From positions 1 to 64,000 of the IMG/VR virus record IMGVR_UViG_3300027969_000074: DNA of 64,000 bases; one strand, written 5' to 3'. A program made the position numbers and the translations under genes. The DNA comes from a virus. The notes under the pieces are model-generated. The model was not told the origin of the DNA. It searched no databases and saw only the letters and a program-made list of their open reading frames with translations. Below are positions 2,600 to 49,784 of the stretch, one piece after another; positions within the stretch are counted from its first letter, which is position 1, and every line of letters starts with the position of its first letter.

Positions 2600-3298
2600 A
2601 TGAAAACTTTTAAATTTTTATCAGTAGCTGTAGTACTTGCTCTACTGCTATGTACTGGCTTTATTAAAGACCCTGCAACAATTAAATTAGAACCTAGTTT
2701 AATTAAGTTAGTGCCTAGTTCAATCAAGTTAGAGCACAAAGGTTACACTGCCTATTATAGTAAAACCCTACACTATCCATTAAAGGTTGAATGGTGGGAT
2801 ACTAAAGCCAGATTAGAGTGTCCAACTACTAAAGTTCCACGTAAGGATCAATTTGCACCGGACCCATTATTGCCAGATGAAACGGACTTAATGGATGATT
2901 ATGTGGGTTCAGGTACTGATCGAGGTCATATGTGCCCAGCCGCAGACAATCAATGTAGTACTGAATTGCAAACTGAGTGTTTTTATTTCTCGAATATGGC
3001 TCCACAGTACCATTCGTTAAATGCTGGAGACTGGAAGAAACTTGAGATGAAAACTAGAGACCTTGCCATACAATACGATTCAGTAATGGTTTGGTGTGGC
3101 TCGACTGGTGAAGCTAAAAAAATAGGCTCAACCTCAGTACCTCTTAAATGTTGGAAGGTTTTATTTGTTAAAAAGACCAAGGTTTGGGAATATTATATTT
3201 TTAATAATACCCCAGACAAACCAGTTGGACTAGATCATTGGAAAGTTACAAAAGCTAAGATTGAGAAATTAACCGGATATACCTTTACCGTTAAGTAA
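2600..3298 (+). CDS. Exported DNA/RNA non-specific endonuclease (NucA family)
   Basis: This is a metal-dependent endonuclease expected to cut DNA and RNA outside the cytoplasm. Residues 1-22 form a signal peptide (MKTFKFLSVAVVLALLLCTG). The signature DRGHMCPAAD is at 107-116, with His110 as the predicted general base. SNMAPQYHSLNAGDW follows (131-145), in which Asn141 matches the Mg-binding Asn of the family. The length (232) is normal. Oddly, residues 27-46 hold three short tandem copies of an IKLEPS-like unit between signal peptide and catalytic domain, encoded by a 21-base-scale repeat. It could degrade host or competitor DNA or extracellular DNA. Family assignment is strong; biological role is inferred. 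Confidence 0.88.
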   Translation: MKTFKFLSVAVVLALLLCTGFIKDPATIKLEPSLIKLVPSSIKLEHKGYTAYYSKTLHYPLKVEWWDTKARLECPTTKVPRKDQFAPDPLLPDETDLMDDYVGSGTDRGHMCPAADNQCSTELQTECFYFSNMAPQYHSLNAGDWKKLEMKTRDLAIQYDSVMVWCGSTGEAKKIGSTSVPLKCWKVLFVKKTKVWEYYIFNNTPDKPVGLDHWKVTKAKIEKLTGYTFTVK

Positions 3299-4156: not shown

Positions 4157-4944
4157 TATGTGCTAGGTTTGACTTGAGGTTTCTTAGTAAGACTGGCAAC
4201 CTCTTTTTTAGTTTGATTTGTTGTATTCGTAATTGCAGCAATTGTAGTATTGGTTGCTTTAGCGGTTGCATAATTTTTAGCAGCGGCTTTTAATACAAGT
4301 TCTCCAGTTTCACCAGTTGATCCATGCGCACCTAATTTTAACGGATTAAGTTTTGCTAAAAATTGTAGAAATTTATTAATTGAGGCTGGAATACCCTGAG
4401 TTATTAAGGTACTTATCTTAGTAAGAGCTATTTCAATTGAGCCGAATTTACTTATAACCCATGCGCCTAATTCTGAATTTTTAAATTCTCGAATTTTTTG
4501 ACCAACCCATTTGGCAATATCGCTAACCATTCCAAGCAGAGTTTTAAGTTTAGCTGAAACTTCGGGAGCAGCAGCTTTTGCTAATTTAAAAGCAGTTGGA
4601 TTAGATAGACCCTCAGTAAATGCAGCCATTACAATTTTAATTTCAGCCTTTAGTGCAACTGCCAGTGCTTGAGCTCCACTAATTGCCACAACTGAGGCTA
4701 GAGTTATTAAACCTTGCATATTTAAAGAAACCTTTTCAGCTTCAGTATTTGCAAAACTTGCCTGAATTGAATAGGAAATAGCATGAATTATATCAATAAC
4801 ACTGCCTGATCCTGGAACTACAGTATCTGATATTGCACTAATCACATCAACTCCAAGATGAGCTAAATCGTCCCATTCCCAATCTTCATTAAGTTCACGT
4901 TCTCGATTGTTTGTCCAATCGCTATATTCTAATAAGTACTGCAT
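4156..4944 (-). CDS. Putative packaged virion protein with hydrophobic domain
   Basis: This 262-residue protein has a leader of the shared kind (MQYLLEYSDWTNNRERELNE, then D; Y-x-x-W and L-N-E). Residues 28-75 read LGVDVISAISDTVVPGSGSVIDIIHAISY, resembling the D-x-[VI]-x-x-x-x-P-G-x-G-x-x-x-D linker found before effector domains in polymorphic toxins. Long hydrophobic/amphipathic helices follow (about 75-215) and the tail is Lys/Thr-rich. Such a protein could insert into or cross a membrane during genome delivery. It is the third member of a minus-strand operon that starts at 5654 under motif B. The function is inferred only. Confidence 0.6.
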   Translation of the reverse strand: MQYLLEYSDWTNNRERELNEDWEWDDLAHLGVDVISAISDTVVPGSGSVIDIIHAISYSIQASFANTEAEKVSLNMQGLITLASVVAISGAQALAVALKAEIKIVMAAFTEGLSNPTAFKLAKAAAPEVSAKLKTLLGMVSDIAKWVGQKIREFKNSELGAWVISKFGSIEIALTKISTLITQGIPASINKFLQFLAKLNPLKLGAHGSTGETGELVLKAAAKNYATAKATNTTIAAITNTTNQTKKEVASLTKKPQVKPST

Positions 4945-5195
4945 TAAAATCCTTCAACATTAGGTAGCCCGCTGCCCGGTTCAGCGTCATGATTCCGAGG
5001 TTCAAATTCATGATCGGTCATTTGATCTTCTGAATATTCTTCCTCTTCTTCAGGTTCACGATGTTCTTTACAGTCTGAGCAAATTCCGCCTTGCATGATT
5101 GGTGCACCGCAACAATTTGATTTGCCAGTTTCGTATGCATCATATGGATGCCAGCTTTCGTTAAGAAAATCGTTAAAATTCTTTATAATTGACAT
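4944..5195 (-). CDS. Small zinc-ribbon protein with packaged-type leader
   Basis: This 83-residue protein has the leader MSIIKNFNDFLNE followed by SWHP, a good match to the prohead-protease-like pattern (F-x-x-F, L-N-E). The core CCGAPIMQGGICSDCKEH (28-45) is a zinc ribbon (CC...C-x-x-C) of a type common in phages. The C-terminus is very acidic (EEEEEYSEDQ). The stop overlaps the next start by one base (4944). The zinc site suggests nucleic-acid or protein contact; the partner is unknown. Confidence 0.7.
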   Translation of the reverse strand: MSIIKNFNDFLNESWHPYDAYETGKSNCCGAPIMQGGICSDCKEHREPEEEEEYSEDQMTDHEFEPRNHDAEPGSGLPNVEGF

Positions 5196-5210: not shown

Positions 5211-5654
5211 TTATGGTTCAACGTCTTCATCATCTTCAATACCAAGAGCCATTGAGTTAAATTTATTCCAAGCAGTAATTGCAGCTTTCATTGTTTTATT
5301 AAGCTCAATTAAAGAGGTCTTTAGCTCTTCAACTTTTGTTTTATCAGCTTCTTCAACTGGGTTTTTACGAATGTCTTCTGGAATTTCCAAGAATTCTCCC
5401 TGTTTTTCTTTAAATGCTTTAATTGCTTCTCTGCGCGCTTTATCTAAATTTTGATATTCTTCAATTTCAGACTCAGCTGATACGATTTCTGGCTCAGATG
5501 GAATTTCTGGAGTAGTTGCGGCTGGCGTTTCAGTTGTAACCGGCAAAGCTGCTGCATCCGTTGCTGCAGGTACTTCTGGAGTAGCGGTTGGCACCTGTTC
5601 GTTTGCTTCAACTTTTTCAGATTCTTCAATCCATTGTTGATATTTATGAATCAT
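5211..5654 (-). CDS. Putative packaged virion protein, disordered N-half
   Basis: This 147-residue acidic protein begins MIHKYQQWIEE followed by SEKVE, with Y-x-x-W and I-E-E before Ser. Residues 18-60 are Pro/Thr/Ala/Glu-rich and likely disordered. Residues 64-135 are strongly helical and charged (EEYQNLDKARREAIKAFKEKQ), suggesting a coiled coil. It is the first gene of the operon 5654-3431, directly downstream of motif B on the minus strand. It resembles small acidic internal-head proteins in style, not in recognisable sequence. Confidence 0.65.
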   Translation of the reverse strand: MIHKYQQWIEESEKVEANEQVPTATPEVPAATDAAALPVTTETPAATTPEIPSEPEIVSAESEIEEYQNLDKARREAIKAFKEKQGEFLEIPEDIRKNPVEEADKTKVEELKTSLIELNKTMKAAITAWNKFNSMALGIEDDEDVEP

Positions 5655-5704: not shown

Positions 5705-6508
5705 ATGGCAACGATTGTAAACTTTAATACATGGGTATCTGAAAATATCGAGCATCCAAGACCTCTTAAGCAATTAGGCGATCTTGGTATTAATCGTAAA
5801 TTTGGTAGAAACCCTCATACTGGTGACAAATATGAAACTGAACTGTTTCCAATGTTCCGTAGGTTAAAGCCTAGAATAGCCGCACTACCTAAGAAACCAA
5901 CGCTAGAAGAATGGTTCGCAATGATGCAGAACTCAGATAATCAATTTTATTCAATGGTACAGGCGGATACTCTAGCTCAACCTGATGTACGAGAGTTATG
6001 GAGAGACCTAACCGGTCAACGCGCTTCAAAGATGAAACGCTATAATTTATCAGAAGGAGCAGAGCCTACTGCCTGGAAAAGTAAACTTGATCTAGACTGG
6101 ACGGTTATAGCCCTTTGGCCAGAGGATTCTCTATATAAAGATTGTGCAAAGATTTTTAACTATTTAGGAATTGCATTTGCAGATCTTTCCTCAAAAACTA
6201 TCTATATTGACGGAGTAATAATTGAGAGTCAAAACTTAACAAGTGATCACATACTTGCAATTGAGGCTCACGAAATAGCGCATTTTGAATTGGATCACTC
6301 TGCCTCTAAATACGATAGAGCAAATCAATACGATGAACGTCAAGAAATGGAAGCTGACTGGTTTGGTATTAGACTGCTTAAACTAAAAAATGAAATAAAT
6401 GCAGCTGACCTTTTAGAAGATCGGTATGAACTATATTATAACGAGCCTTCCTCTACTCTTGAAAAGACTGACGATCTTGAGACAATTCTTAATAATTACG
6501 TCAACTAA
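5705..6508 (+). CDS. Putative packaged HExxH zinc metallopeptidase
   Basis: This 267-residue protein has a C-terminal metallopeptidase domain. HEIAHFELDH at 189-198 is the gluzincin-type zinc motif (His189, Glu190, His193), and the downstream QEMEADWFGIRLL (about 214-226) supplies a Glu/Asp third ligand, as in the ImmA/IrrE (M78) group. The leader MATIVNFNTWVSE then N fits the packaged-protein pattern (F-x-x-W, V-S-E). Residues 25-125 resemble no domain I know. ImmA-like peptidases cut repressors and other regulatory proteins, so an injected protease acting on a host protein is plausible. Motif B precedes it and a small membrane protein follows. Confidence 0.78.
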   Translation: MATIVNFNTWVSENIEHPRPLKQLGDLGINRKFGRNPHTGDKYETELFPMFRRLKPRIAALPKKPTLEEWFAMMQNSDNQFYSMVQADTLAQPDVRELWRDLTGQRASKMKRYNLSEGAEPTAWKSKLDLDWTVIALWPEDSLYKDCAKIFNYLGIAFADLSSKTIYIDGVIIESQNLTSDHILAIEAHEIAHFELDHSASKYDRANQYDERQEMEADWFGIRLLKLKNEINAADLLEDRYELYYNEPSSTLEKTDDLETILNNYVN

Positions 6509-6890: not shown

Positions 6891-7100
6891 TTAGTCGATA
6901 TCGTCTTGTCGACCATTTGTTATTTCCTTATAGTATTCCCAAAGTTCTTGGCAACCCTCATAATTTTCTTTATATTCTAAATATCCAATAACGGCAAGAA
7001 CCTCCTTCCAATAGCTTGAGGTAACACCTTTACGGTCAATATCTTTATACTTCTTGATCCATAGTTCTTCGTTTTCTATATAATCTCGCACCATCTTCAT
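6891..7100 (-). CDS. Small hypothetical protein
   Basis: This is an unrecognised charged, helical protein of about 69 residues rich in Tyr, Trp, Lys and Glu (YENEELWIKKY-like helices). The first ATG is at 7100. An upstream TTG at 7106 is possible but less likely. It overlaps the last 56 bases of the HDAC-like gene in another frame, so it is probably co-transcribed and coupled. The long overlap lowers confidence slightly, but nothing else fills the region to the terminator. Confidence 0.55.
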   Translation of the reverse strand: MKMVRDYIENEELWIKKYKDIDRKGVTSSYWKEVLAVIGYLEYKENYEGCQELWEYYKEITNGRQDDID

Positions 7101-8052
7101 ACTCAATTTTTCGACGAGGACTTACCTCTATAGTATATTTAACGTCGACCTCAAGTAATTCTTTAAGGCACTCAACAAAATCGCTGGTATGTAAACTTAA
7201 GACTGAATTATAGTCATCTTCGCGATATCCACCAAATAGAGCACATGATATAGGTAATGGTCTTCCTAATAATCTATCCATTTCTTTTACCCATTTCCAA
7301 AAAAGAGTTGAACATGCAATCCAGTGGTCAGTATCACATTGCCTTCCTAAATTATCATCTGCATGTGAATCTGCACCATGACACCAAACTACATATTGAA
7401 TTTTATCGGTAAGGATAGCATGTTTTAATCGCTCTAACCATTTTGCAAGATCGGCTAAGTAATCTGAATCATAACCCTGTGGATTAATATTAAAATCTAA
7501 TGGAACTGCTTTATTTAAGTTTTTACAAAATGCACGACTGTCTTCAATTGAATTTCCAAAATGACCGTCTAAATCAAGATAGGCTCCACTAAACGCAAAT
7601 TCATTATAGATTTTAAGTGATGCAATTACTTGACCACTAAATGTACAAAAACCGCTTCCGCCGCTTGGCCTAGCATGGTGGAATCCACTAGTTGGACTGA
7701 AACTAACCTGGTTTGGATTAACTATTGAATTCCTGATTGCTGAGTATAGGGATGAATTTGTGTATCTAATTGATTCAGCAAACTGTTTTGACCAGGCTAA
7801 TGAATTTGAATTGCACAAACCTGTCCCATTAAAAAAATCGTCCACATAACTTTTATGATGAGCCATTCTAAAATCAGTTTTAGTAAATGGCCTAAAATCA
7901 TCAGTTATTGAAAAATTTCCAAGAAGTTTTTTCTGTTTTAAATATGCCAAAAGAAGTTTAGGTTTTAATGGAGACTTGCTATAATTAGAAGTCTTGTCAT
8001 TTTCCAAAACCTGTTTTGGCGTATAAAAAGTTTTTATTTTCTTTGATCTCAT
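7045..8052 (-). CDS. Histone-deacetylase-superfamily amidohydrolase
   Basis: This 335-residue protein has the arginase/deacetylase fold of HDAC, AcuC and acetylpolyamine amidohydrolases: zinc-dependent removal of acyl groups from lysine or polyamines. The visible catalytic set is the His pair in GFHHARPSGGSGFCTF (His125-His126), the metal ligands in AYLDLDGHFGN (Asp160/162, His164), Asp228 in CHGADSHADDNLG, and a GGY near 290 placed like the transition-state Tyr. I start at the ATG at 8052: an in-frame ATG at 8097 would place a promoter-like GGTATATTATATT inside the gene. The substrate could be host acetyl-lysine proteins or a polyamine. Confidence 0.82.
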   Translation of the reverse strand: MRSKKIKTFYTPKQVLENDKTSNYSKSPLKPKLLLAYLKQKKLLGNFSITDDFRPFTKTDFRMAHHKSYVDDFFNGTGLCNSNSLAWSKQFAESIRYTNSSLYSAIRNSIVNPNQVSFSPTSGFHHARPSGGSGFCTFSGQVIASLKIYNEFAFSGAYLDLDGHFGNSIEDSRAFCKNLNKAVPLDFNINPQGYDSDYLADLAKWLERLKHAILTDKIQYVVWCHGADSHADDNLGRQCDTDHWIACSTLFWKWVKEMDRLLGRPLPISCALFGGYREDDYNSVLSLHTSDFVECLKELLEVDVKYTIEVSPRRKIEYEDGARLYRKRRTMDQEV

Positions 8053-8058
8053 ACTTAA

Positions 8059-8069
8059 TATAATATACC
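8059..8069 (-). promoter_or_regulatory. Weak motif A-like promoter box
   Basis: GGTATATTATA on the minus strand lies 7-17 bases upstream of the ATG at 8052. It diverges from the TAGTATAAT consensus but occupies the same position, and it supports the downstream start. Confidence 0.35.
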
Positions 8070-8109
8070 ATAAAAGCTTAGAGGCTTTCAACCGCATGTT
8101 ATATTACCA

Positions 8110-8835
8110 TTAATCTAAATCAGTTGGTTCATCCTTGAAAAATTTATCCAGTTTATCAAGATGATCAAATAGTTCAGCTGGGCCGATTGGATTAGCGGTT
8201 AAGTCAGACTTTTTAATTATATCAGTGGTAAAGCTATAAAGAACAAGTTCGCTTAATACAGTTCTCATAAAATCAAAGAAAGTCCAATCAGTTATTCCAC
8301 TAAATATTGCATCATCATTACGGGAGTCATCATCATAATATTCCAAAAAATCATCAATAACAATTTGGGTATTTAGCAATTGGTCAATTGTTATATCGTA
8401 AATGCTGTGCAACTCATCTTCTGCACCATCATCTTCTTCGTCAATCATCTCCAGGGCAAGTAGTGCTGGAAATGTGTATATTTTTGAGTCATCAACATCC
8501 GGCACTGGTTTTACTTGACCCATCCATAATAGGCAAATCGCGTCTATTTTAAGATCATGCGGTTCAGCCGGTCGACTTAATAATTCAGTAAATAGGTCTT
8601 CAACTTGAACGCCATTAAGATATGCAAGAAACACAAAATTTAATTGTTCAGCATATGGAGTTAAATTATTAATTATGTCCTTTAGCTTAACATTTTTTTC
8701 TATATGAACGTCGTACGGTAAGTACCACGTGATAGGTAAACTTGTATCAGCCATATTTCGGTCTATCCATTTTTCAGAAGTTTCATCCCAAAATGAAATT
8801 AGGATAGCTTGTTTAGTAAATGTGAGTTTCTGCAT
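8110..8835 (-). CDS. Hypothetical acidic protein
   Basis: I do not recognise this 241-residue protein. It is acidic, with an Asp/Glu-rich middle (MIDEEDDGAEDEL at about 130-142 and YYDDDSRNDD at about 166-175) and hydrophobic helices near 55-75 and 185-205. A motif A-like TAGTAGAATA (8851-8860, minus strand) precedes it, which suggests expression with the metabolic genes. It lies 57 bases upstream of the HDAC-like gene and may be co-transcribed with it. Confidence 0.6.
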   Translation of the reverse strand: MQKLTFTKQAILISFWDETSEKWIDRNMADTSLPITWYLPYDVHIEKNVKLKDIINNLTPYAEQLNFVFLAYLNGVQVEDLFTELLSRPAEPHDLKIDAICLLWMGQVKPVPDVDDSKIYTFPALLALEMIDEEDDGAEDELHSIYDITIDQLLNTQIVIDDFLEYYDDDSRNDDAIFSGITDWTFFDFMRTVLSELVLYSFTTDIIKKSDLTANPIGPAELFDHLDKLDKFFKDEPTDLD

Positions 8836-8918: not shown

Positions 8919-10883
8919 ATGGCAAAGTCTTTTATAGAAGCAATTAATGAATCGAATATTAATCAGGGTGGGCTAGTTGATGAAATGGGGGTTAAACGCC
9001 CTGAGCGATTAGCTGGAAGTCATATTGGTAGAGCTAGACAGGAAACAGTTACTCGTAGACAACAGCTTGCAAATCAGCCAGTTCGTAGAAGTTACTCAGA
9101 AGTTGCAGCAGATTTAACTCGTGCACTAAAACAGGTTCCTAGAATTGAGATTACAATGGAAAAGCCTAGTAATACCAGAGATTATTATCCAAGATTTCCA
9201 CAACCTATTGTTGATTTACTCAAGGAACTCAAGCAAATTGATGAAGGCCGAATGAAAGAGGATTTTGGTAAATGGAGAGACGTATATCCATCAGGTACGG
9301 CTGTTTATCTTAGAACTGAAGAGCCTAGCTCATTTCAACGCAGCCATTTCCCAAATGACGGAATTAGACCAGCTCTTAGAGGTACAGGCTTAGGTTACAA
9401 ATTGTACAGAACACTATTAAAATATGCAGGTTATATTTCATCAAATTCAAGCGGAACTACTGAAAAAGACAAAGCTTGGGGATCATTGTTGGACTATAAA
9501 GCAAATCCAGATGGAACGCCATCAGTTGATGATGCGCTAGCAATAATTGGTCCAGGAAGTTGGATGGCAATGGATAAAGGAATAAGTACTCAATCAAAAA
9601 TTGATGTAGCTGAGAGATTTATTGAACGCCAAATCGGATTTAATAACACAAAACCGGACAGATTTGATATTGACGATGAACTTCTTTCAATTCTACCTGA
9701 TACTTTTTTAACAAAGTTAGATGATGAGTACTTAGCGTCATTAGGTCGAGACGGCCGTATATCAAATGAGAGATTTAGCTCAATTAATGCAGCTAGATCA
9801 GAAGTGCAGCGTCTTGACAGAGAAAGAGCAGAGCGCCAAGCAATCGAAGATAGAGAGCGTAGAACTCGTGAAGAGGCTGAAACTCGACAACGCCTTGCTT
9901 CTCGTATTAGACAATTCGGCGCAGACCCAGATGCAGAATGGCAAGTTGGCGACTTTATTGTAGTTAAAAGCTACCTGTATGATGCAGGCTACGATAGCTT
10001 ACCAATTAGGCAAGTAGTTGATGTACGCAACGGGACTTATATTGCTGCTGGTATATCAGATGTTATTCGAATTGAAGCTGGCGAACGTACCCCAGGTGAT
10101 GCAAATGACACTCGGACAACTACTGATAAATCACAATGGGTTAAAGTAAATATTGAAAATATTCCTGATCTAGATAGAGTTAACCTAACCCCAGCCGGTA
10201 AACTCTTTATTCTTAATAGATTAAGCCCTGAAGTAGTTCAACAGCGTCGAGATGCGGAAGCTCAAGCAGAAAGAGAACGTATTGAAAGAGATCGTTCTCA
10301 AAATTTGGCCAGAACTGCAGACAAAGCCCTATTTGGTAAACTTGATTTTACTGGAGCTGAATTAAAACAGGCTGTTAATAATCGCCAAACCTTGGCGAAT
10401 CTTGACTTGCTTAAGAAAATCAGAACTGGTAATTTTGCAAAATTTGTAGTTCTAGCAGAACCTCAACAGGCCTCTCTTAGAGGAGCCGCTGGAGTTCCAG
10501 TATTTGTCGCGATTGAAAGACTAGGCAGAGCAACAAGGTCAGTTGAAAGCCCGCAGGAATTAATAAGTAATCCGCGTAATATTATGCTAGTTAATGTAGT
10601 TACTGGTAAAATGGTTGAAGGTCCATTTGTTGGAATGGGATTAATTGCACTAGGCCTTGAACCAGTTACAGAACAGGATAAATTAATGGCAAGAGCTGGA
10701 GATCACTACTATATCGCAAATCACCAAAACAATTGGGGTATTTTATCTAAATGCGATTATACAACCAGAAATACTGCAAATCAGCCGTTTATTTACTTAC
10801 GAACATTTGGTGGAGCTGAAAGACCTACTCCAGTTAGATTAGATCTTTTAAGAAAGATAACTGACAGGACTGAGATTGTCTAA
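8919..10883 (+). CDS. Large putative packaged virion protein with acetyltransferase-like segment
   Basis: This is a 654-residue multi-domain protein. The leader MAKSFIEAINE followed by SNINQ ends in I-N-E before Ser. Residues about 155-185 (RPALRGTGLGYKLYRTLLKYAGY) resemble the acetyl-CoA-binding turn of GNAT enzymes (R-G-x-G-L-G), though the rest of a GNAT core is not obvious. Residues about 290-330 are an Arg/Glu-rich coiled coil (RERAERQAIEDRERRTREEAE), and a second charged helix lies near 445-465. The rest is unrecognised alpha/beta. It is late by its motif B box and ends convergently, overlapping the nuclease gene by 4 bases. Confidence 0.6.
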   Translation: MAKSFIEAINESNINQGGLVDEMGVKRPERLAGSHIGRARQETVTRRQQLANQPVRRSYSEVAADLTRALKQVPRIEITMEKPSNTRDYYPRFPQPIVDLLKELKQIDEGRMKEDFGKWRDVYPSGTAVYLRTEEPSSFQRSHFPNDGIRPALRGTGLGYKLYRTLLKYAGYISSNSSGTTEKDKAWGSLLDYKANPDGTPSVDDALAIIGPGSWMAMDKGISTQSKIDVAERFIERQIGFNNTKPDRFDIDDELLSILPDTFLTKLDDEYLASLGRDGRISNERFSSINAARSEVQRLDRERAERQAIEDRERRTREEAETRQRLASRIRQFGADPDAEWQVGDFIVVKSYLYDAGYDSLPIRQVVDVRNGTYIAAGISDVIRIEAGERTPGDANDTRTTTDKSQWVKVNIENIPDLDRVNLTPAGKLFILNRLSPEVVQQRRDAEAQAERERIERDRSQNLARTADKALFGKLDFTGAELKQAVNNRQTLANLDLLKKIRTGNFAKFVVLAEPQQASLRGAAGVPVFVAIERLGRATRSVESPQELISNPRNIMLVNVVTGKMVEGPFVGMGLIALGLEPVTEQDKLMARAGDHYYIANHQNNWGILSKCDYTTRNTANQPFIYLRTFGGAERPTPVRLDLLRKITDRTEIV

Positions 10884-11632
10884 ATCACAATTGGCGGATT
10901 CTTTCGATAGAACTCTGCCAATCTTTCTCTGAATTTAAAATAGTATTCTCTCATTTCACTAGAGTCCATTCTAAAGTGTTGTGGAGCTAAGTTTAATTCG
11001 TTTGAAATCCAAATTCTACAAGTAACTGTCTTAACCTGCATACGGTCCCAAACTGCAACCGAATATGCTGCGACTTGGTGCTTATAATCTTCAATCCATT
11101 TTTCTTCCTTGGGTTTACGAGCGGTCTTAAAATCTACAATTGCATGGTCGCCAGTTATTAATTCAGAAACATTATCAACTGTGCCAGCAAATCCACCATC
11201 TCTAGCCGTCCATAAGAATCGCTCTTGAGCAATTACTCGTTTAATTTCGTCAAATGAATTTGATTTTATAAAATTATAGAAGAGCATGCCTCCCACAATT
11301 TTTGCCCGATTATCAAATTGATCAATTTCATCATCTATTCTGGCCAAGGACAAAGTGTCCTCAAGTCTGTCTTTTGCAGACATCGACTGCGGCAGATTAA
11401 GATAAATTTCGCATAACCGGTGCATCACAGTTCCTCGGTTAGCTGCATCTTGGCCGATTTGATCAGCTTTTTGGTGACCTATACGGTTTCTCCAAGCATC
11501 AAGTCCAGATTTATCAGAGGTATCTCCAAGTACAGAGGTTACACTTGGGAAAGTTCCAAGTATTCCAGTTGAGTCAGATACTTGATAGTATCGAAATCCA
11601 TTCAGCACAACTCGTTTAATTGATTCAGACAT
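10880..11632 (-). CDS. PD-(D/E)XK nuclease (RecB/Cas4-like exonuclease)
   Basis: This 250-residue protein has the PD-(D/E)XK core: Asp153 in GTVDNVSEL, then Asp167-Phe-Lys169 in AIVDFKTARK, then the Q-x-x-x-Y helix motif QVAAYS (186-191). An upstream helix carries the RGTVMHRLCEIYL segment typical of phage RecB-like exonucleases. These enzymes process DNA ends in recombination and repair, or degrade host DNA. The start is an ATG at 11632. The gene is divergent from the late lysin-type operon at 11682 and overlaps the 3' end of the gene at 8919-10883 by 4 bases. Confidence 0.82.
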   Translation of the reverse strand: MSESIKRVVLNGFRYYQVSDSTGILGTFPSVTSVLGDTSDKSGLDAWRNRIGHQKADQIGQDAANRGTVMHRLCEIYLNLPQSMSAKDRLEDTLSLARIDDEIDQFDNRAKIVGGMLFYNFIKSNSFDEIKRVIAQERFLWTARDGGFAGTVDNVSELITGDHAIVDFKTARKPKEEKWIEDYKHQVAAYSVAVWDRMQVKTVTCRIWISNELNLAPQHFRMDSSEMREYYFKFRERLAEFYRKNPPIVI

Positions 11633-13381: not shown

Positions 13382-13584
13382 TATTCAAGATCATAATAGA
13401 TCCTGAATCCAAAATCCCAAATGAGTATATTAAAACTTACTATTAATAGCCAAGAGCTAACTCCAGATTCAATAAAGTGACCTTCTGGATTATATGTAAT
13501 ATACGGGGAAATTAAGCCAATTTGCTTAAAGACTGGTGACCATGTTTTATAACAATACGGTTCAATTCTTAATACTTTCTTCAT
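13378..13584 (-). CDS. Small hypothetical protein
   Basis: This 68-residue protein is unrecognised. It is aromatic-rich, with one hydrophobic stretch (VSSWLLIVSFNILIWDFGF, about 42-60) that could be a single membrane segment. It overlaps the upstream acetyltransferase gene by 4 bases (ATGA-type coupling) and the convergent lysin gene by 4 bases. Confidence 0.5.
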   Translation of the reverse strand: MKKVLRIEPYCYKTWSPVFKQIGLISPYITYNPEGHFIESGVSSWLLIVSFNILIWDFGFRIYYDLEY

Positions 13585-13928
13585 AATTTAACTACTTTAA
13601 ATAGGGCCTTTTCAATTGCATATCCGTTGTTGATAAAATATTTTAAACTATCAACATTACAGTGTGCATAAATAGATTTATCTGATTCTTTTATTTTAGA
13701 GTCTCTATAGTTCCACAATAATTTATAGATACCCTGACTTCTGTGTTCTTCTTTAACGTATGCATGACAAAGATAAATTACAGCAGCGTGTTCAACATAT
13801 GAAACTACTCCAACCAATTCATCTTTAATAAAGCACCCATAATAAGTTGCATATTCGTCTAATAGATCAGGCTTAAGTTCGCTGAATTCATGATCAACTT
13901 CCTTATATGTTATTTTTCTAATTTCCAT
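13581..13928 (-). CDS. GNAT-family N-acetyltransferase
   Basis: This 115-residue protein is a compact GNAT domain. Strands 3-4 (YYGCFIKDELVGVVSYVEHAAVIYLCHAYV) lead to the acetyl-CoA loop EEHRSQGIYKLLWNY (about 77-91), and the C-terminal part NVDSLKYFINNGYAIEK matches the N-x-x-A-x-x-x-Y-x-x-x-G-F end motif. The acceptor is unknown. It is shorter than many GNATs but has the core. It sits between thyA and a small membrane protein on the same strand, with 3 bases from thyA. Confidence 0.75.
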   Translation of the reverse strand: MEIRKITYKEVDHEFSELKPDLLDEYATYYGCFIKDELVGVVSYVEHAAVIYLCHAYVKEEHRSQGIYKLLWNYRDSKIKESDKSIYAHCNVDSLKYFINNGYAIEKALFKVVKL

Positions 13929-13931
13929 ATC

Positions 13932-15230
13932 TTAATTGGATAAAGGCGCTTTAATTGATTGATGTGATTGATAATTGCCTAATTGAATATCTTCCTCCAA
14001 TAAACACTTACAAAAATTATCATCAGTGAAATTATTAAATATTGAGATTGCCTCTATTGGGCCATCTTCAGTTTCTCTAGCCCAAAACTCAGTATTAATA
14101 TTTAAAGAAGGTAATTCAAACGGTACTCTACTATAATATGGAATCTTATAAATATCATAATATTCAGAAAGACCTCCGCCGAATGGCATTAGTTCAGCAA
14201 CCGCTGACTGGTACGCGACCGGTCCCATTGCATCTTTCAACATAGACCCCCGTTCTTCATGGTCATATTTTCTTCCAATTTGTTCTTTTGCTTGTTCAAT
14301 ATGATTTGAATATAAATGAGTATCACCTAAATTTCCTATCAATTCGTCAGGTACCATATTAACTGAAGTAGCAATGATTTCCAATAACAATCCATAAGAA
14401 GCAATATTGAATGGTAAACCTAAAAACGTATCTACTGAACGTTGATTCCACATTAAAGAGATTGCTCTTGTCGGTAAACGTAACTTGTCAGCCCATTCTT
14501 TTGTTAATATTCCATCTATATTTATCTTATAACCATAGTCTTCTCTTTCTTCCCAACTCAACTCTCTCGTATAAACTTGAAATCCATAATGACAAGGTGG
14601 GAGAACCATTTGGTTTAATTCACCCACATTCCAAGCACTAACCATCAATCGTCTTGAGTCTGGATTTGTTTTAAGGTCGTTGATTAGGTTTGCTATTTGG
14701 TCTATAGGTTCATGTAAGGTATATCCAGTATTGTCTCCACTGTAATCTACTATCATGTTATCAAAATTTACTTTGTTCCATTTTCTCCATTGCTTACCGT
14801 AAATTGAACCTAACTCCCCCCACTTCTTAGCAAACTCATCATCTGTTTTAATACGTTCAATAAATCCTTCTTTACTTAGAATATTGTAATCAGTTGCCTC
14901 TTTAAGTATACCCTCGTCAGTAGCTTTATCAATTGATAGCTTAACGGTCTTTTCATAATTCTTATATGCATCACCATCCCAAATATGACATCCGTTATCA
15001 ACTAAGAACTTGATATTAGTATCGCCACGTAGGAACCATAACAATTCAGTTACAATAGTTTTAAATGGCATCTTCTTAGTTGTAAGTAAAGGAAATCCTT
15101 CTGACATTTTGTGTCTGATTTGTCTTCCAAATACCGAAATCGTACCAGTTCCTGTTCTGTCAGATTTGGTTACTCCATTATCTAAAATATCTTGGAGTAG
15201 TGCTTGATATTGTTTATCTAAACTATTCAT
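13932..15230 (-). CDS. thyA: Thymidylate synthase (ThyA), enlarged
   Basis: The enzyme makes dTMP from dUMP with methylene-tetrahydrofolate. Motifs include SDRTGTGT (23-30), the nucleophile Cys213 in LPPCHYGFQVY, the phosphate-binding DSRRLMVSAW (191-200), NQRSVDTFLGLPFNIASY (about 250-270) and a C-terminus ending IKAPLSN. At 432 residues it is much longer than the usual 264. Two insertions account for this: about 85-140, before the G-S-I-Y-G-x-Q-W-R motif, and about 320-400, after the HLYSNHIEQ motif. All core motifs persist, so it is probably active. It serves phage DNA synthesis. Confidence 0.95.
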   Translation of the reverse strand: MNSLDKQYQALLQDILDNGVTKSDRTGTGTISVFGRQIRHKMSEGFPLLTTKKMPFKTIVTELLWFLRGDTNIKFLVDNGCHIWDGDAYKNYEKTVKLSIDKATDEGILKEATDYNILSKEGFIERIKTDDEFAKKWGELGSIYGKQWRKWNKVNFDNMIVDYSGDNTGYTLHEPIDQIANLINDLKTNPDSRRLMVSAWNVGELNQMVLPPCHYGFQVYTRELSWEEREDYGYKINIDGILTKEWADKLRLPTRAISLMWNQRSVDTFLGLPFNIASYGLLLEIIATSVNMVPDELIGNLGDTHLYSNHIEQAKEQIGRKYDHEERGSMLKDAMGPVAYQSAVAELMPFGGGLSEYYDIYKIPYYSRVPFELPSLNINTEFWARETEDGPIEAISIFNNFTDDNFCKCLLEEDIQLGNYQSHQSIKAPLSN

Positions 15231-15740: not shown

Positions 15741-15750
15741 TATTATACTA
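15741..15750 (-). promoter_or_regulatory. Motif A promoter box
   Basis: TAGTATAATA on the minus strand is 6-15 bases upstream of the ATG at 15735. It is the reference match for motif A and implies a leader of only a few bases. Confidence 0.6.
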
Positions 15751-16554
15751 TGATTGTAGACTTGGAACCCAATGTGTTGTGCGACCGTCTGGTGTTTCTT
15801 CCCTAACCACTACATTGCCTAATGGATCCTGTTTTTGAGCATAGACTTCAAACTCAAAGGTAAAGTCGCCAGCTTCTCCATTTACTTGGCGATAATTTCT
15901 GATACTTGCTCCGCCTTGATCGTATGAAGCTTTCATTATTAATTTACCCCAATTCCATAATTGACAGATCTCATCTTGTGTTAAATCTTGCACCAATCGA
16001 TATGGAGATATTTTAGAGCGATAGAGCATTTCACATTTAATATAATTACCAATGCCAGCAAACAAGGACTGATTCATTAGTGCTTCTGCAACAGTTTTTT
16101 TCTGAACTTTAGGCAGTTCAACCTTTCTAACAAAATCATACATGCTGGAAGTTTGATCGTTTAACATGTCAAGCCCAAGGCTCTCCAATTTTTTTGAAAG
16201 CTCTGACTTCAGTGTGAACTTTAAGGTACCGAATCGGCGCTGATCAACAAAATACAGAGACGTACCATCCTCAAAACCTATTCGGAAATGGCTATGAGGC
16301 TTAAGGCCAGTTGACCAGTACCCGCTCATTCCCAGTGTTATCCAGAGGCATGTCTCGTCACTAAATTCCAGCCAGATGAATTTGCCCTTAACTCCACCGC
16401 CGGTCACACGGACTGGCACCGATGTTTTAACGTTAAGATCGGGAGCCCTTTTTAGGAAACGGCCACCTAGCACCTCAAATTGACTAATTGTTTTTGTTTT
16501 AGCGATTTCCGAGATTCCCTCGTAAACTCGTCTGCATTCCGGACCTTCTGGCAT
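15748..16554 (-). CDS. Fpg/Nei-family DNA glycosylase with a zincless finger
   Basis: This 268-residue base-excision repair glycosylase/AP lyase begins MPEGPECRRV, giving the catalytic Pro2 and Glu3. The helix-2-turn-helix is NQSLFAGIGNYIKCEMLYRSKISP (about 165-190). The C-terminal DNA-binding finger (about 237-268) keeps the overall form, including GRTTHWVPSLQ, but all four zinc Cys are replaced (DPLGN and WVPSLQ where Fpg has CxxC). It is therefore a zincless finger, as known in NEIL1 and mimiviral Nei. The substrate is likely oxidised bases; the exact specificity is unclear. Confidence 0.9.
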   Translation of the reverse strand: MPEGPECRRVYEGISEIAKTKTISQFEVLGGRFLKRAPDLNVKTSVPVRVTGGGVKGKFIWLEFSDETCLWITLGMSGYWSTGLKPHSHFRIGFEDGTSLYFVDQRRFGTLKFTLKSELSKKLESLGLDMLNDQTSSMYDFVRKVELPKVQKKTVAEALMNQSLFAGIGNYIKCEMLYRSKISPYRLVQDLTQDEICQLWNWGKLIMKASYDQGGASIRNYRQVNGEAGDFTFEFEVYAQKQDPLGNVVVREETPDGRTTHWVPSLQS

Positions 16555-20143: not shown

Positions 20144-20404
20144 TTACCACTTAGGTTCCTCGCCAATTTGATCTAGTGCGCAATGAAAGCCTACCAGTCT
20201 GGTCTTGGCCTCTAAGAAACAGCCACATATACCGCACTGGGTTAGGATCTCGCCAAAATGCGGACACTCTTTACAAATTGCCATTCGACGGTCTTTTTCT
20301 GTATCATTCACAAATACTTTATTCATGATTCTACTAAGCACAGTAGTTTGTGGAACTGGTTGGTTATTGCTGCAACCACAGCCTTGAGTTGTTTCGTCAG
20401 CCAT
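20144..20404 (-). CDS. Small Cys-rich zinc-binding protein
   Basis: This 86-residue protein has two Cys pairs (CKECPHFG near 44-51, QCGICGCFLEAKTR near 56-69) and a last Cys near 76, plus an N-terminal CGC. The spacing fits a phage zinc-ribbon family of the type C-x-x-C-P...C-x-x-C-G-C. It is one base from, and probably coupled to, the UV endonuclease gene upstream (start/stop overlap at 20404). It may be a partner in DNA repair, by position only. Confidence 0.65.
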   Translation of the reverse strand: MADETTQGCGCSNNQPVPQTTVLSRIMNKVFVNDTEKDRRMAICKECPHFGEILTQCGICGCFLEAKTRLVGFHCALDQIGEEPKW

Positions 20405-21378
20405 TATGCTTCGATTTTTTCAAATAGTCTCTTATCGTCAAACTCTAAATAGCTTTCAAGTAAAGAGCTAAAACCTTCGCGATACTTAAGTACAGCTAAG
20501 TCTTTGGCCTTTGCCTCAATTTCAATATCTATTGCCTGACCATAATTATTTATTTGCTCATAAATGTAATCAGCATGAGACCTCGCAATTACGCTTGGAT
20601 CCTCGAATGTTTTTTTACTACTTGAATAATGAGTAAGCGGAGTATGGCCGTGCCAAGTGGTAGCAGCCAGCTTAAGCGCAGCCTCTTCAGTAAGATCACT
20701 AGTATTAAACCGGTGATGATGAAAATCAAAAGTAATAGGAGTACCTATTTCAAGATACACCAATTGATATAGATCGACTACTGAATATTGAGTAGCCTTA
20801 TCGTCATTTTCTACAACCAGCCTGGCTTTGGTATTTGGTTTAAGTAGTTGAAAATTCTCGCAAAAACGTTTAGCTGCTGCCGTTTTATCGCCATAAGTAC
20901 CGCCAATATGAATATTGATTGGGAAACCTACATTGGTTGGCAACTTCATAAGATCCATAATTTCGCAGTGCTGATCCAGATCCTTTACGGTTTTTGCAAC
21001 AACATCGGCTCTAGGAGAAGGCAAGACATCGAACTGGCCTGGGTGCATTGATACCCTGATATTATTTGCAACTGCAAACTTGCCAATCTCTTGCATGTCT
21101 GATAAAATTTCAGGAAAATGTGGCAGCATTTGAATTTCATATTCTGACATCCATGGAAAAATATCGCTTGACATTCTGTACACATAAATGCCATTGGCTA
21201 AATTCCATTCCAGAATTTTTAGAACATCTTTTATATTTTGATGTGCAAGCTCGGCACAATATTCAAGGCCCTTTTCCTGAAAGGTTTTACGGATCATACC
21301 TCGATTGGCTGTAATTTTTTGGTCGGCTAATGACAAGTTAATGCAACAATAACCCAAACGGACGTTAGTATCTTTCAT
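20404..21378 (-). CDS. uvsE: UV damage endonuclease (UVDE family)
   Basis: This 324-residue TIM-barrel enzyme nicks DNA 5' to pyrimidine dimers and other lesions. Seen in order: RLGYCCINLSL (7-17), the ENDD-like metal site in RLVVENDDKATQYS (about 185-198), SMHPGQFDVL (about 109-118), NIHIGGTYGDK (about 155-165), and TFDFHHHRFN (about 220-229), all UVDE hallmarks with conserved His/Glu/Asp ligands. The length is normal. A strong motif A box is just upstream of the ATG. It forms, with the Fpg-like, MBD4-like and ligase genes, a base/UV repair set. Confidence 0.93.
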   Translation of the reverse strand: MKDTNVRLGYCCINLSLADQKITANRGMIRKTFQEKGLEYCAELAHQNIKDVLKILEWNLANGIYVYRMSSDIFPWMSEYEIQMLPHFPEILSDMQEIGKFAVANNIRVSMHPGQFDVLPSPRADVVAKTVKDLDQHCEIMDLMKLPTNVGFPINIHIGGTYGDKTAAAKRFCENFQLLKPNTKARLVVENDDKATQYSVVDLYQLVYLEIGTPITFDFHHHRFNTSDLTEEAALKLAATTWHGHTPLTHYSSSKKTFEDPSVIARSHADYIYEQINNYGQAIDIEIEAKAKDLAVLKYREGFSSLLESYLEFDDKRLFEKIEA

Positions 21379-25188: not shown

Positions 25189-25656
25189 TTAGGAAATTCT
25201 ATCTAAAATTATTAATTGTGCTCTAGATACCTTTGAATAGGCGTCTTTAACATCAATAAAGCCGGCCCAGTCTATTTCTTCTGGCTGTAATTGACTCTTT
25301 GGAATAGTCAATCCATCTAGTCCAATTTCAGAAAGCTCTGAGATTCTACAAATAAAATAATGAAGTGAGTTTTTATAGTCGCCGGCCTTATCAAAAACCT
25401 GAACAGTTTCAACAGCCGGCTCTAATTTATCAGGTGAGAGCCTAATTCCAGTTTCTTCAAGAAGTTCTCTAAGCGCAGCATCAAGAATTTCTTCTCCAAC
25501 TTCAATTTTGCCTTTTGGAATTCCCATAATTGGTTTGGTCCAACTGCCATTGGTTGGATGAACTAGTAGAATCTTTTTTTGATAAAGAATAGCTACACCA
25601 GCCGCATCTGAATATTTCTTTTTTTCTGCCAAGAAATTAGAAAATGTTTTAATCAT
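25189..25656 (-). CDS. NUDIX hydrolase with packaged-type leader
   Basis: This 155-residue protein has the NUDIX box GKIEVGEEILDAALRELL then EETGI (about 49-71; G-x5-E-x7-R-E-x-x-E-E-x-G), and GIPKG just before it as usual. It hydrolyses nucleoside diphosphate-X compounds: dNTP sanitation, alarmone or cap-like substrates are all possible. Unusually it begins MIKTFSNFLAE then KKK, the F-x-x-F/L-A-E leader seen on packaged proteins, which is not part of the NUDIX fold. The gene overlaps the bS21 gene by 8 bases and shares its motif A promoter, so early expression and packaging may both apply. Confidence 0.85.
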   Translation of the reverse strand: MIKTFSNFLAEKKKYSDAAGVAILYQKKILLVHPTNGSWTKPIMGIPKGKIEVGEEILDAALRELLEETGIRLSPDKLEPAVETVQVFDKAGDYKNSLHYFICRISELSEIGLDGLTIPKSQLQPEEIDWAGFIDVKDAYSKVSRAQLIILDRIS

Positions 25657-49414: not shown

Positions 49415-49778
49415 GGGGATAACCGGTTTTGACAGAAATTATCGGTTACGCTTGCACGCCGAGGATGATGCTAAGACTCGTTAAAATGTATTACAAACAA
49501 TAAGTGGCAACACTACTTTCTGGAGCCTAGTTAACCAAGGCGTTAACACTCCTGTTACTGAAGAGCTTTTAGCTGCATAAGTAACCAAGCGGCAACTGCT
49601 TGACTAACCAAAGTTGCAAAACCAGCATGGCGTAGCGGCCAAGTCGAACCGTTACCGACTTTAGCTTTAAGTCGTTAAAGAATAAGATATTTCGTCCAAT
49701 TAGAAAAATGGACTAAGCGTGTAAATGAAAGTTTAATTAGAGGTTTTTTGGACGGCGGTTCGATTCCGCCTATCTCCA
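49415..49778 (+). ncRNA. ssrA: Transfer-messenger RNA (tmRNA) with a long tag
   Basis: The 5' end GGGGATA pairs with 3' TATCTCC to form the acceptor stem, with discriminator A. The T-arm is GGCGG-TTCGATT-CCGCC, and the ACTAAGCGTGTAAA segment just before it is a conserved tmRNA element. CCA is not encoded (the next bases are CAC). The tag frame most likely begins at GGC 49506, after ACAAACAATAAGT, and runs 24 codons to TAA at 49578-49580: GNTTFWSL-VNQG-VNTPV-TEELLAA. The end LLAA keeps the ClpXP-type degron. tmRNA rescues stalled ribosomes and tags their products for proteolysis. Confidence 0.93.
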
Positions 49779-49784
49779 CACCAC

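Follow-up and report, generated by a model that had tools for sequence, protein, structure and literature searches.

A gene of histone deacetylase (HDAC) type was located in a 64,000-nucleotide stretch of viral DNA (the window), which is part of an 89,057-base IMG/VR virus record carrying a terminase, a baseplate wedge protein, an endolysin-like protein and a tmRNA. As judged from sequence comparison and a predicted structure, its product belongs to a distinct, conserved subfamily in huge phages, which has been exchanged with bacteria and whose tunnel segment is unlike that of the studied HDACs. The product was read as an active class IV-type zinc deacylase, exchanged between Bacteroidota and huge phages, that would act on protein lysines and may be balanced by acetyltransferase-type proteins from nearby genes; we regard this reading as evenly poised between right and wrong. 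The gene and its main elements were as follows.

7045..8052, minus strand: deacetylase gene, 335 aa (PF00850 at 8.7e-17, two alignments, AF2 model with pLDDT 90.2)
7675..7680, minus strand: codons of the catalytic pair His125-His126, invariant in 112/112 relatives
7561..7575, minus strand: codons of D160-L-D162-G-H164, with D160, D162 and H164 invariant in 112/112
7369..7371, minus strand: codon of Asp228, the late zinc ligand, in 112/112
7225..7227, minus strand: codon of Tyr276 in FGGYR, in 110/110 of the sequences reaching it
8059..8072, minus strand: TATGGTATATTATA element (TTTTGGTATAWTA-like), a possible promoter, directly upstream of the deacetylase ATG

The minus-strand reading frame that an earlier sequence-only reading had called at 7045-8052 was found, yielding 335 residues from 8052. 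The longest open frame spans 7045-8097 and contains an ATG at 8052. The start at 8052 was judged better because relatives begin there and the preceding bases form a conserved element, not conserved coding sequence. All 13 aligned phage-type loci have a TTTTGGTATAWTA-like element ahead of the deacetylase start, and three such sites across the window (1.57 expected) gave no window-wide motif; the element is seemingly specific to this gene. dN/dS was 0.053-0.066 against three close relatives (YN00) and 0.071-0.179 against close relatives by NG86, values that point to strong purifying selection.

Membership of the HDAC family, claimed by the same reading, was borne out by PF00850 (Hist_deacetyl; 8.7e-17, 61.8 bits against a curated cut-off of 27.9), only positions 5-159 of the 298-position model being aligned. 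No PHROG or NCBIfam model covers the protein. The His-His, D-x-D-x-H, late Asp and Tyr motifs stand in the order given there (His125-His126, Asp160-x-Asp162-x-His164, Asp228, Tyr276), and the catalytic set is intact as proposed: HH, D160, D162, H164 and D228 were invariant in all 112 distinct relatives, and Y276 was present in 110/110, the remaining two sequences being cut off. W87, A127, C136, G140, Q141, G166, N167, S168, Y198 and the run G226-A227-D228-S229 were likewise invariant; N188, N190, W244 and FGGYR were nearly so, or complete wherever the sequence extends. We hold with high confidence that the protein is a member of the classical zinc-dependent deacetylase family, of arginase/deacetylase fold, with an intact site.

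HDAC structures matched the AF2 model (pLDDT 90.2) at Z 26-31 across about 270-290 residues. The VIA ranking was led by 9gkv (Z 31.4, 278 residues, 2.3 Å), 9gky (31.3) and 9gz5 (30.9), with the next entry at 28.6, so that class IV led the class behind it by about 2.3-2.8 Z. Profile search returned 9gz5 at 4.2e-16 and 9gkv at 1.5e-14, against 1.7e-9 for HDAC8, and the best solved relatives in a plain sequence search were 9gkv, 9gz5 and 9rje. By their structure titles, 9gkv is V. cholerae HdaH and 9gz5 is Leptospira HDAC11; 9RJE is Chlamydomonas HDAC11-1 (PMC13325672, in part). Class IV entries occupied ranks 1-5 of the Foldseek list, and the best acetylpolyamine amidohydrolase (APAH) row, 3q9b, was at rank 35. 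Both sequence and model place the enzyme closest to class IV HDACs (HDAC11 / cluster 5). An APAH (cluster 4) as closest kin was rejected, since class IV ranks first by both Foldseek and profile. In BFVD, six rows fell under E 0.001, all from giant viruses of eukaryotes, and one of these was an arginase.

The zinc ligands His164 and Asp228 are 64 residues apart (62-67 in 112/112 relatives), whereas 10 of the 13 comparison proteins have 72-85 residues there; for this spacing L145 gave no value, L151 was a pattern mis-hit, and L147, L158, L159 and L164 were left out. Counted in this way, the segment is mostly 11-21 residues shorter than in described HDACs. It measures 61 residues in L171, and a short segment is therefore not unique to the deacetylase subfamily. 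For the window protein and for subfamily members from bacterial genomes, the Pfam alignment stopped halfway along the model, whereas other HDACs from the same genomes were mostly aligned along the whole model; the half-length alignment was attributed to the shortened segment.

V. cholerae HdaH (9gkv, 9gky) and Chlamydomonas HDAC11-1 (9rje), of clade A / cluster 5, share the fold (Z 31.4 for 9gkv) and the catalytic set with the window protein, at about 20% identity for 9gkv, but their zinc His-Asp segment is longer. Their Gly at the Glu94 position (human numbering) was also found in 57 of 112 phage and bacterial relatives (Ser in 36, others in 19). The pocket gatekeeper is Thr/Ser in clade A and Phe (63) or Met (49) in the window subfamily; the pocket end is Ser (95), Thr (10) or Ala (7), the clade A Arg being absent. 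Leptospira interrogans HDAC11 (9gz5, 9rjd) of clade B, the best profile match (4.2e-16), has the Phe gatekeeper and Ser pocket end in common with the window protein, which lacks the clade B Glu (Glu84 in the Leptospira enzyme, aligned with Ser84) and whose zinc His-Asp segment is about 13 residues shorter. Leptospira Tyr189, a tunnel wall residue according to part of PMC13325672, aligns with Val183, and Ile or Val was found there in 111/112; the pairing of Tyr189 with Val183 and of Glu84 with Ser84 was counted off on the profile alignment. The subfamily appears to mix clade A and clade B traits, and we infer a more open tunnel.

Seven of 50,697 phage records matched the deacetylase in tblastn, three of them over at least 80% of the query: LR756504 (636 kb, 55.6%) and LR756501/LR756503 (735 kb, 47.5%). 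These unannotated records encode members of the same subfamily (47-56% identity) and are probably the Mahaphage genomes of PMC7162821, which in the part consulted reports genomes of 636 and 735 kb and assigns every genome above 634 kb to the Mahaphage clade, for which Bacteroidetes are the predicted hosts. The homologue in LR756511 (595 kb) is more distant (32.8%) and split over two frames. Nothing in the phage collection closely matched the first 25 kb of the window. That such enzymes are little described in phages, as the earlier reading put it, proved broadly right: one isolated phage, Rhodococcus phage E3, has an annotated gene. Its gp202 ('putative histone deacetylase protein') is, as here, an HDAC-family gene in a phage, but aligns with 64% of the query at 25.7% identity and comes from a different phage lineage and host. 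Searches of the open-licence literature turned up no paper about E3 gp202 or about a phage HDAC of the window type. The HDAC superfamily also occurs in viruses as giant-virus acetylpolyamine amidohydrolases (PMC9992855); in the sections consulted of that survey these are of APAH type, from viruses of eukaryotes and only Imitervirales, and acetylpolyamine hydrolases are given only for giant viruses of eukaryotes.

Alignment search yielded 46 viral loci, on contigs of up to 482 kb, and 93 genome-contig relatives, 80 of them retained; Bacteroidota predominate, alongside some Leptospiraceae, Myxococcota and Planctomycetota. The pool for the tree comprised the window, two phage records, 46 viral and 80 genome loci; leaving out L085, L090 and L092 (no ORF matched) and L088, L128 and L140 (<250 aa) reduced it to 123 sequences. 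Removal of rows sharing the first 250 residues left 112, and the tree was built without LR756511, E3 gp202 and Magritte. On this tree, from a quick search only and with long branches flagged by the program, the virus label has to change 12 times, and well-supported branches force at least six of these changes. One of the 80 genome loci, L018, comes from a Bacteroidetes MAG, but its 254-kb contig belongs to a phage related to the window (synteny, 84% deacetylase identity, neighbours of phage type) and was binned as a bacterium; with L018 recoded as virus, 11 changes are needed and five are forced. The window falls in a mostly viral clade of 24 that includes six Saprospiraceae-type sequences. 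The label changes point to repeated exchange, the gene having moved between bacteria and phages several times; further misbinned contigs may remain.

Some bacterial relatives differ in architecture. The Rufibacter deacetylase (L087, 4479-6014) has an additional domain at its N-terminus that matches nothing in Pfam, and in Pontibacter (L038, L048, L050) a related protein has its own gene immediately upstream, next to an FtsZ-like gene. In L135 a UBA-like tail reached only E 0.02, below cut-off.

The following genes lie near the deacetylase in the window (counts are out of 49 viral loci, many of which are near-copies).

8110..8835, minus strand: upstream neighbour, 241 aa, family in 26/49 viral loci
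8919..10883, plus strand: divergent neighbour, 654 aa, with GNAT-like motif A (LRGTGLGYKLYRTLL), family in 28/49
10880-11632: neighbour gene, family near the deacetylase in 26/49
5705-6508: neighbour gene, family near the deacetylase in 24/49
13581..13928, minus strand: small GNAT acetyltransferase, 115 aa (Acetyltransf_10 1.8e-7, Acetyltransf_1 1.4e-6, both over cut-off)

The 8110-8835 product had no Pfam, PHROG or PADLOC match and no tblastn match in the phage collection. The 654-aa protein is a candidate GNAT on the strength of one motif, and is treated as a lead only. Compared by hhalign with 14 GNATs (25 loci fetched, 11 dropped by open-frame, motif or length filter), it aligned at P 3e-4 across 44 columns, whereas five control families scored 0.0073-0.72. 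Pfam yielded no GNAT match with the threshold relaxed to E 10, nor did a PDB profile search find one; the AF2 mean pLDDT was 69.9, with the motif region mostly <65, and the best Foldseek E was 0.34. Of the 50,697 phage records, the only ones in which the family domain was detected were the holders of the closest deacetylases, LR756501, LR756503 and LR756504. Viral loci with this family held the deacetylase in the fetched stretch in 26 of 30 cases, and a 27th contig (3300002220_000568) has it elsewhere. In LR756501 a 425-aa homologue of the 654-aa protein (25% identity) directly follows the deacetylase, an arrangement that differs from the window; the four GNAT-like domains of LR756504 lie far from the deacetylase, none adjoining it; and in G017, a 482-kb phage record with the deacetylase, the neighbour family was not detected. 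The small GNAT is about 6 kb from the deacetylase. Acetyltransf_1 matches were present in 6 of 13 records with the deacetylase and a sirtuin in two (G017, LR756511); both deacylase types therefore coexist in those two phages.

Elsewhere in the window, a phage-borne tmRNA (49415-49779, plus strand; tag GNTTFWSLVNQGVNTPVTEELLAA) was identified, together with genes for UvdE (20404-21378, minus strand), Fpg glycosylase (15748-16554, minus strand) and a non-specific endonuclease (2600-3298, plus strand). Residues 6-323 of the 432-aa thymidylate synthase (13932-15230, minus strand) match a 266-position Pfam model, which suggests an insert of about 90 residues. A similar N-terminal peptide of the F..[FW]..E[SN] kind, which we take to resemble the T4 head-targeting peptide, was found in five of 76 window ORFs, against one of 332 internal Met positions. 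The products of these five ORFs may be packaged proteins.

907-2079: ORF with F..[FW]..E[SN]-type start
4944-5195: the same type of start
5211-5654: the same
5705-6508: the same
25189-25656: the same

In the lysine-deacylase reading, the phage would express the enzyme from its own gene during infection. Asp162, His164 and Asp228 would hold zinc, the zinc would polarise the acyl amide, the His125/His126 pair would activate water, and Tyr276 would stabilise the transition state; the role of each residue (D162 and H164 as zinc ligands) is assigned from general HDAC knowledge. Acetyl or longer acyl groups would be taken off lysines in proteins of the host or the phage, and acetyltransferase-type proteins from nearby phage genes may act as a counterbalance. 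This reading is supported by the PF00850 match, the invariant catalytic residues, the confident model and the low dN/dS, and further by the VIA and profile ranking of class IV, the Phe/Met gatekeeper and the Ser/Thr/Ala pocket end. Support also comes from the GNAT-like family in 28/49 viral loci, its adjacency in LR756501 and the true GNAT of the window; the pairing is weakened by the missing neighbour family in G017, the distant domains of LR756504 and the single motif behind the GNAT identity. A wider reading, in which Bacteroidota huge phages would run their own reversible acylation switch, the rebuilt-tunnel deacylase working against acetyltransferase-type proteins of the same block and re-marking host machinery, is considered doubtful.

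The main rival to a lysine deacylase is an enzyme for small-molecule amides: an amidohydrolase whose substrate would be a small acylated metabolite, such as an acyl amine, amino sugar or another amide, in place of proteins, and which the phage would put to metabolic use. We consider this possible, and hold it tentatively. The prevalence of Gly/Ser at the Glu94 position favours it and weakens the lysine reading: in the parts of PMC13325672 consulted, active clade B class IV enzymes carry Glu94, change there is linked to non-peptide substrates, and clade A enzymes, V. cholerae HdaH included, show little or no peptide deacylase activity. The Ile/Val in place of the tunnel aromatic and the shortened zinc His-Asp segment are in keeping with a small substrate, and the structurally similar HDAC-family proteins PrpH and DmhA are small-molecule hydrolases (PMC11532494, in part). 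Adjoining pathway genes are, however, not obvious. The polyamine version, which the sequence-only reading had offered beside deacetylation of host proteins, is weakened by the absence of spermidine synthase (the sole polyamine enzyme searched) from all 13 deacetylase records, and by relatives that are of class IV and not cluster 4, where the tested bacterial polyamine deacetylases fall (PMC11532494, in part); polyamine control was set aside as an explanation. Deacetylation of host proteins is possible and is tentatively favoured.

We consider it unlikely that the enzyme is a counter-defence or host-control factor that removes a defence-placed acyl mark or inhibitor from phage or host proteins. 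The bacterial deacetylase is often found beside a vWA protein (19/80 loci) and a 380-aa protein (24/80), and such gene gatherings are seen in conflict systems. In L051 (3026-4845) and relatives the vWA gene is divergent, and the 380-aa gene has no Pfam match; both adjoin the bacterial deacetylase. Against this role, the surroundings of many bacterial loci resemble ordinary chromosome, one example being a neighbouring S-adenosylmethionine synthetase gene (named from sequence), and no PADLOC model matches the enzyme or its vWA and 380-aa neighbours; membership of a defence system was rejected on these PADLOC results. A WYL regulator in one bacterial deacetylase locus does match PADLOC. A passively carried, inactive pseudo-enzyme is very improbable: the distant LR756511 homologue is frameshifted, or misassembled, but the gene is under strong purifying selection and the catalytic residues are invariant over the 112 relatives.

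The HDAC family itself was already known; what is new is a huge-phage subfamily variant, and the system as such is of an established kind. Acylation of proteins ranks among the main regulatory layers in bacteria, and the main texts of two broad recent deacylase surveys (PMC11532494, bacterial; PMC13325672, class IV) use 'phage' or 'virus' zero times. A deacylase widely kept in phages akin to the largest known would provide a direct and testable handle on possible phage editing of acyl marks, and its altered tunnel may aid in finding the substrates of class IV clade A enzymes.
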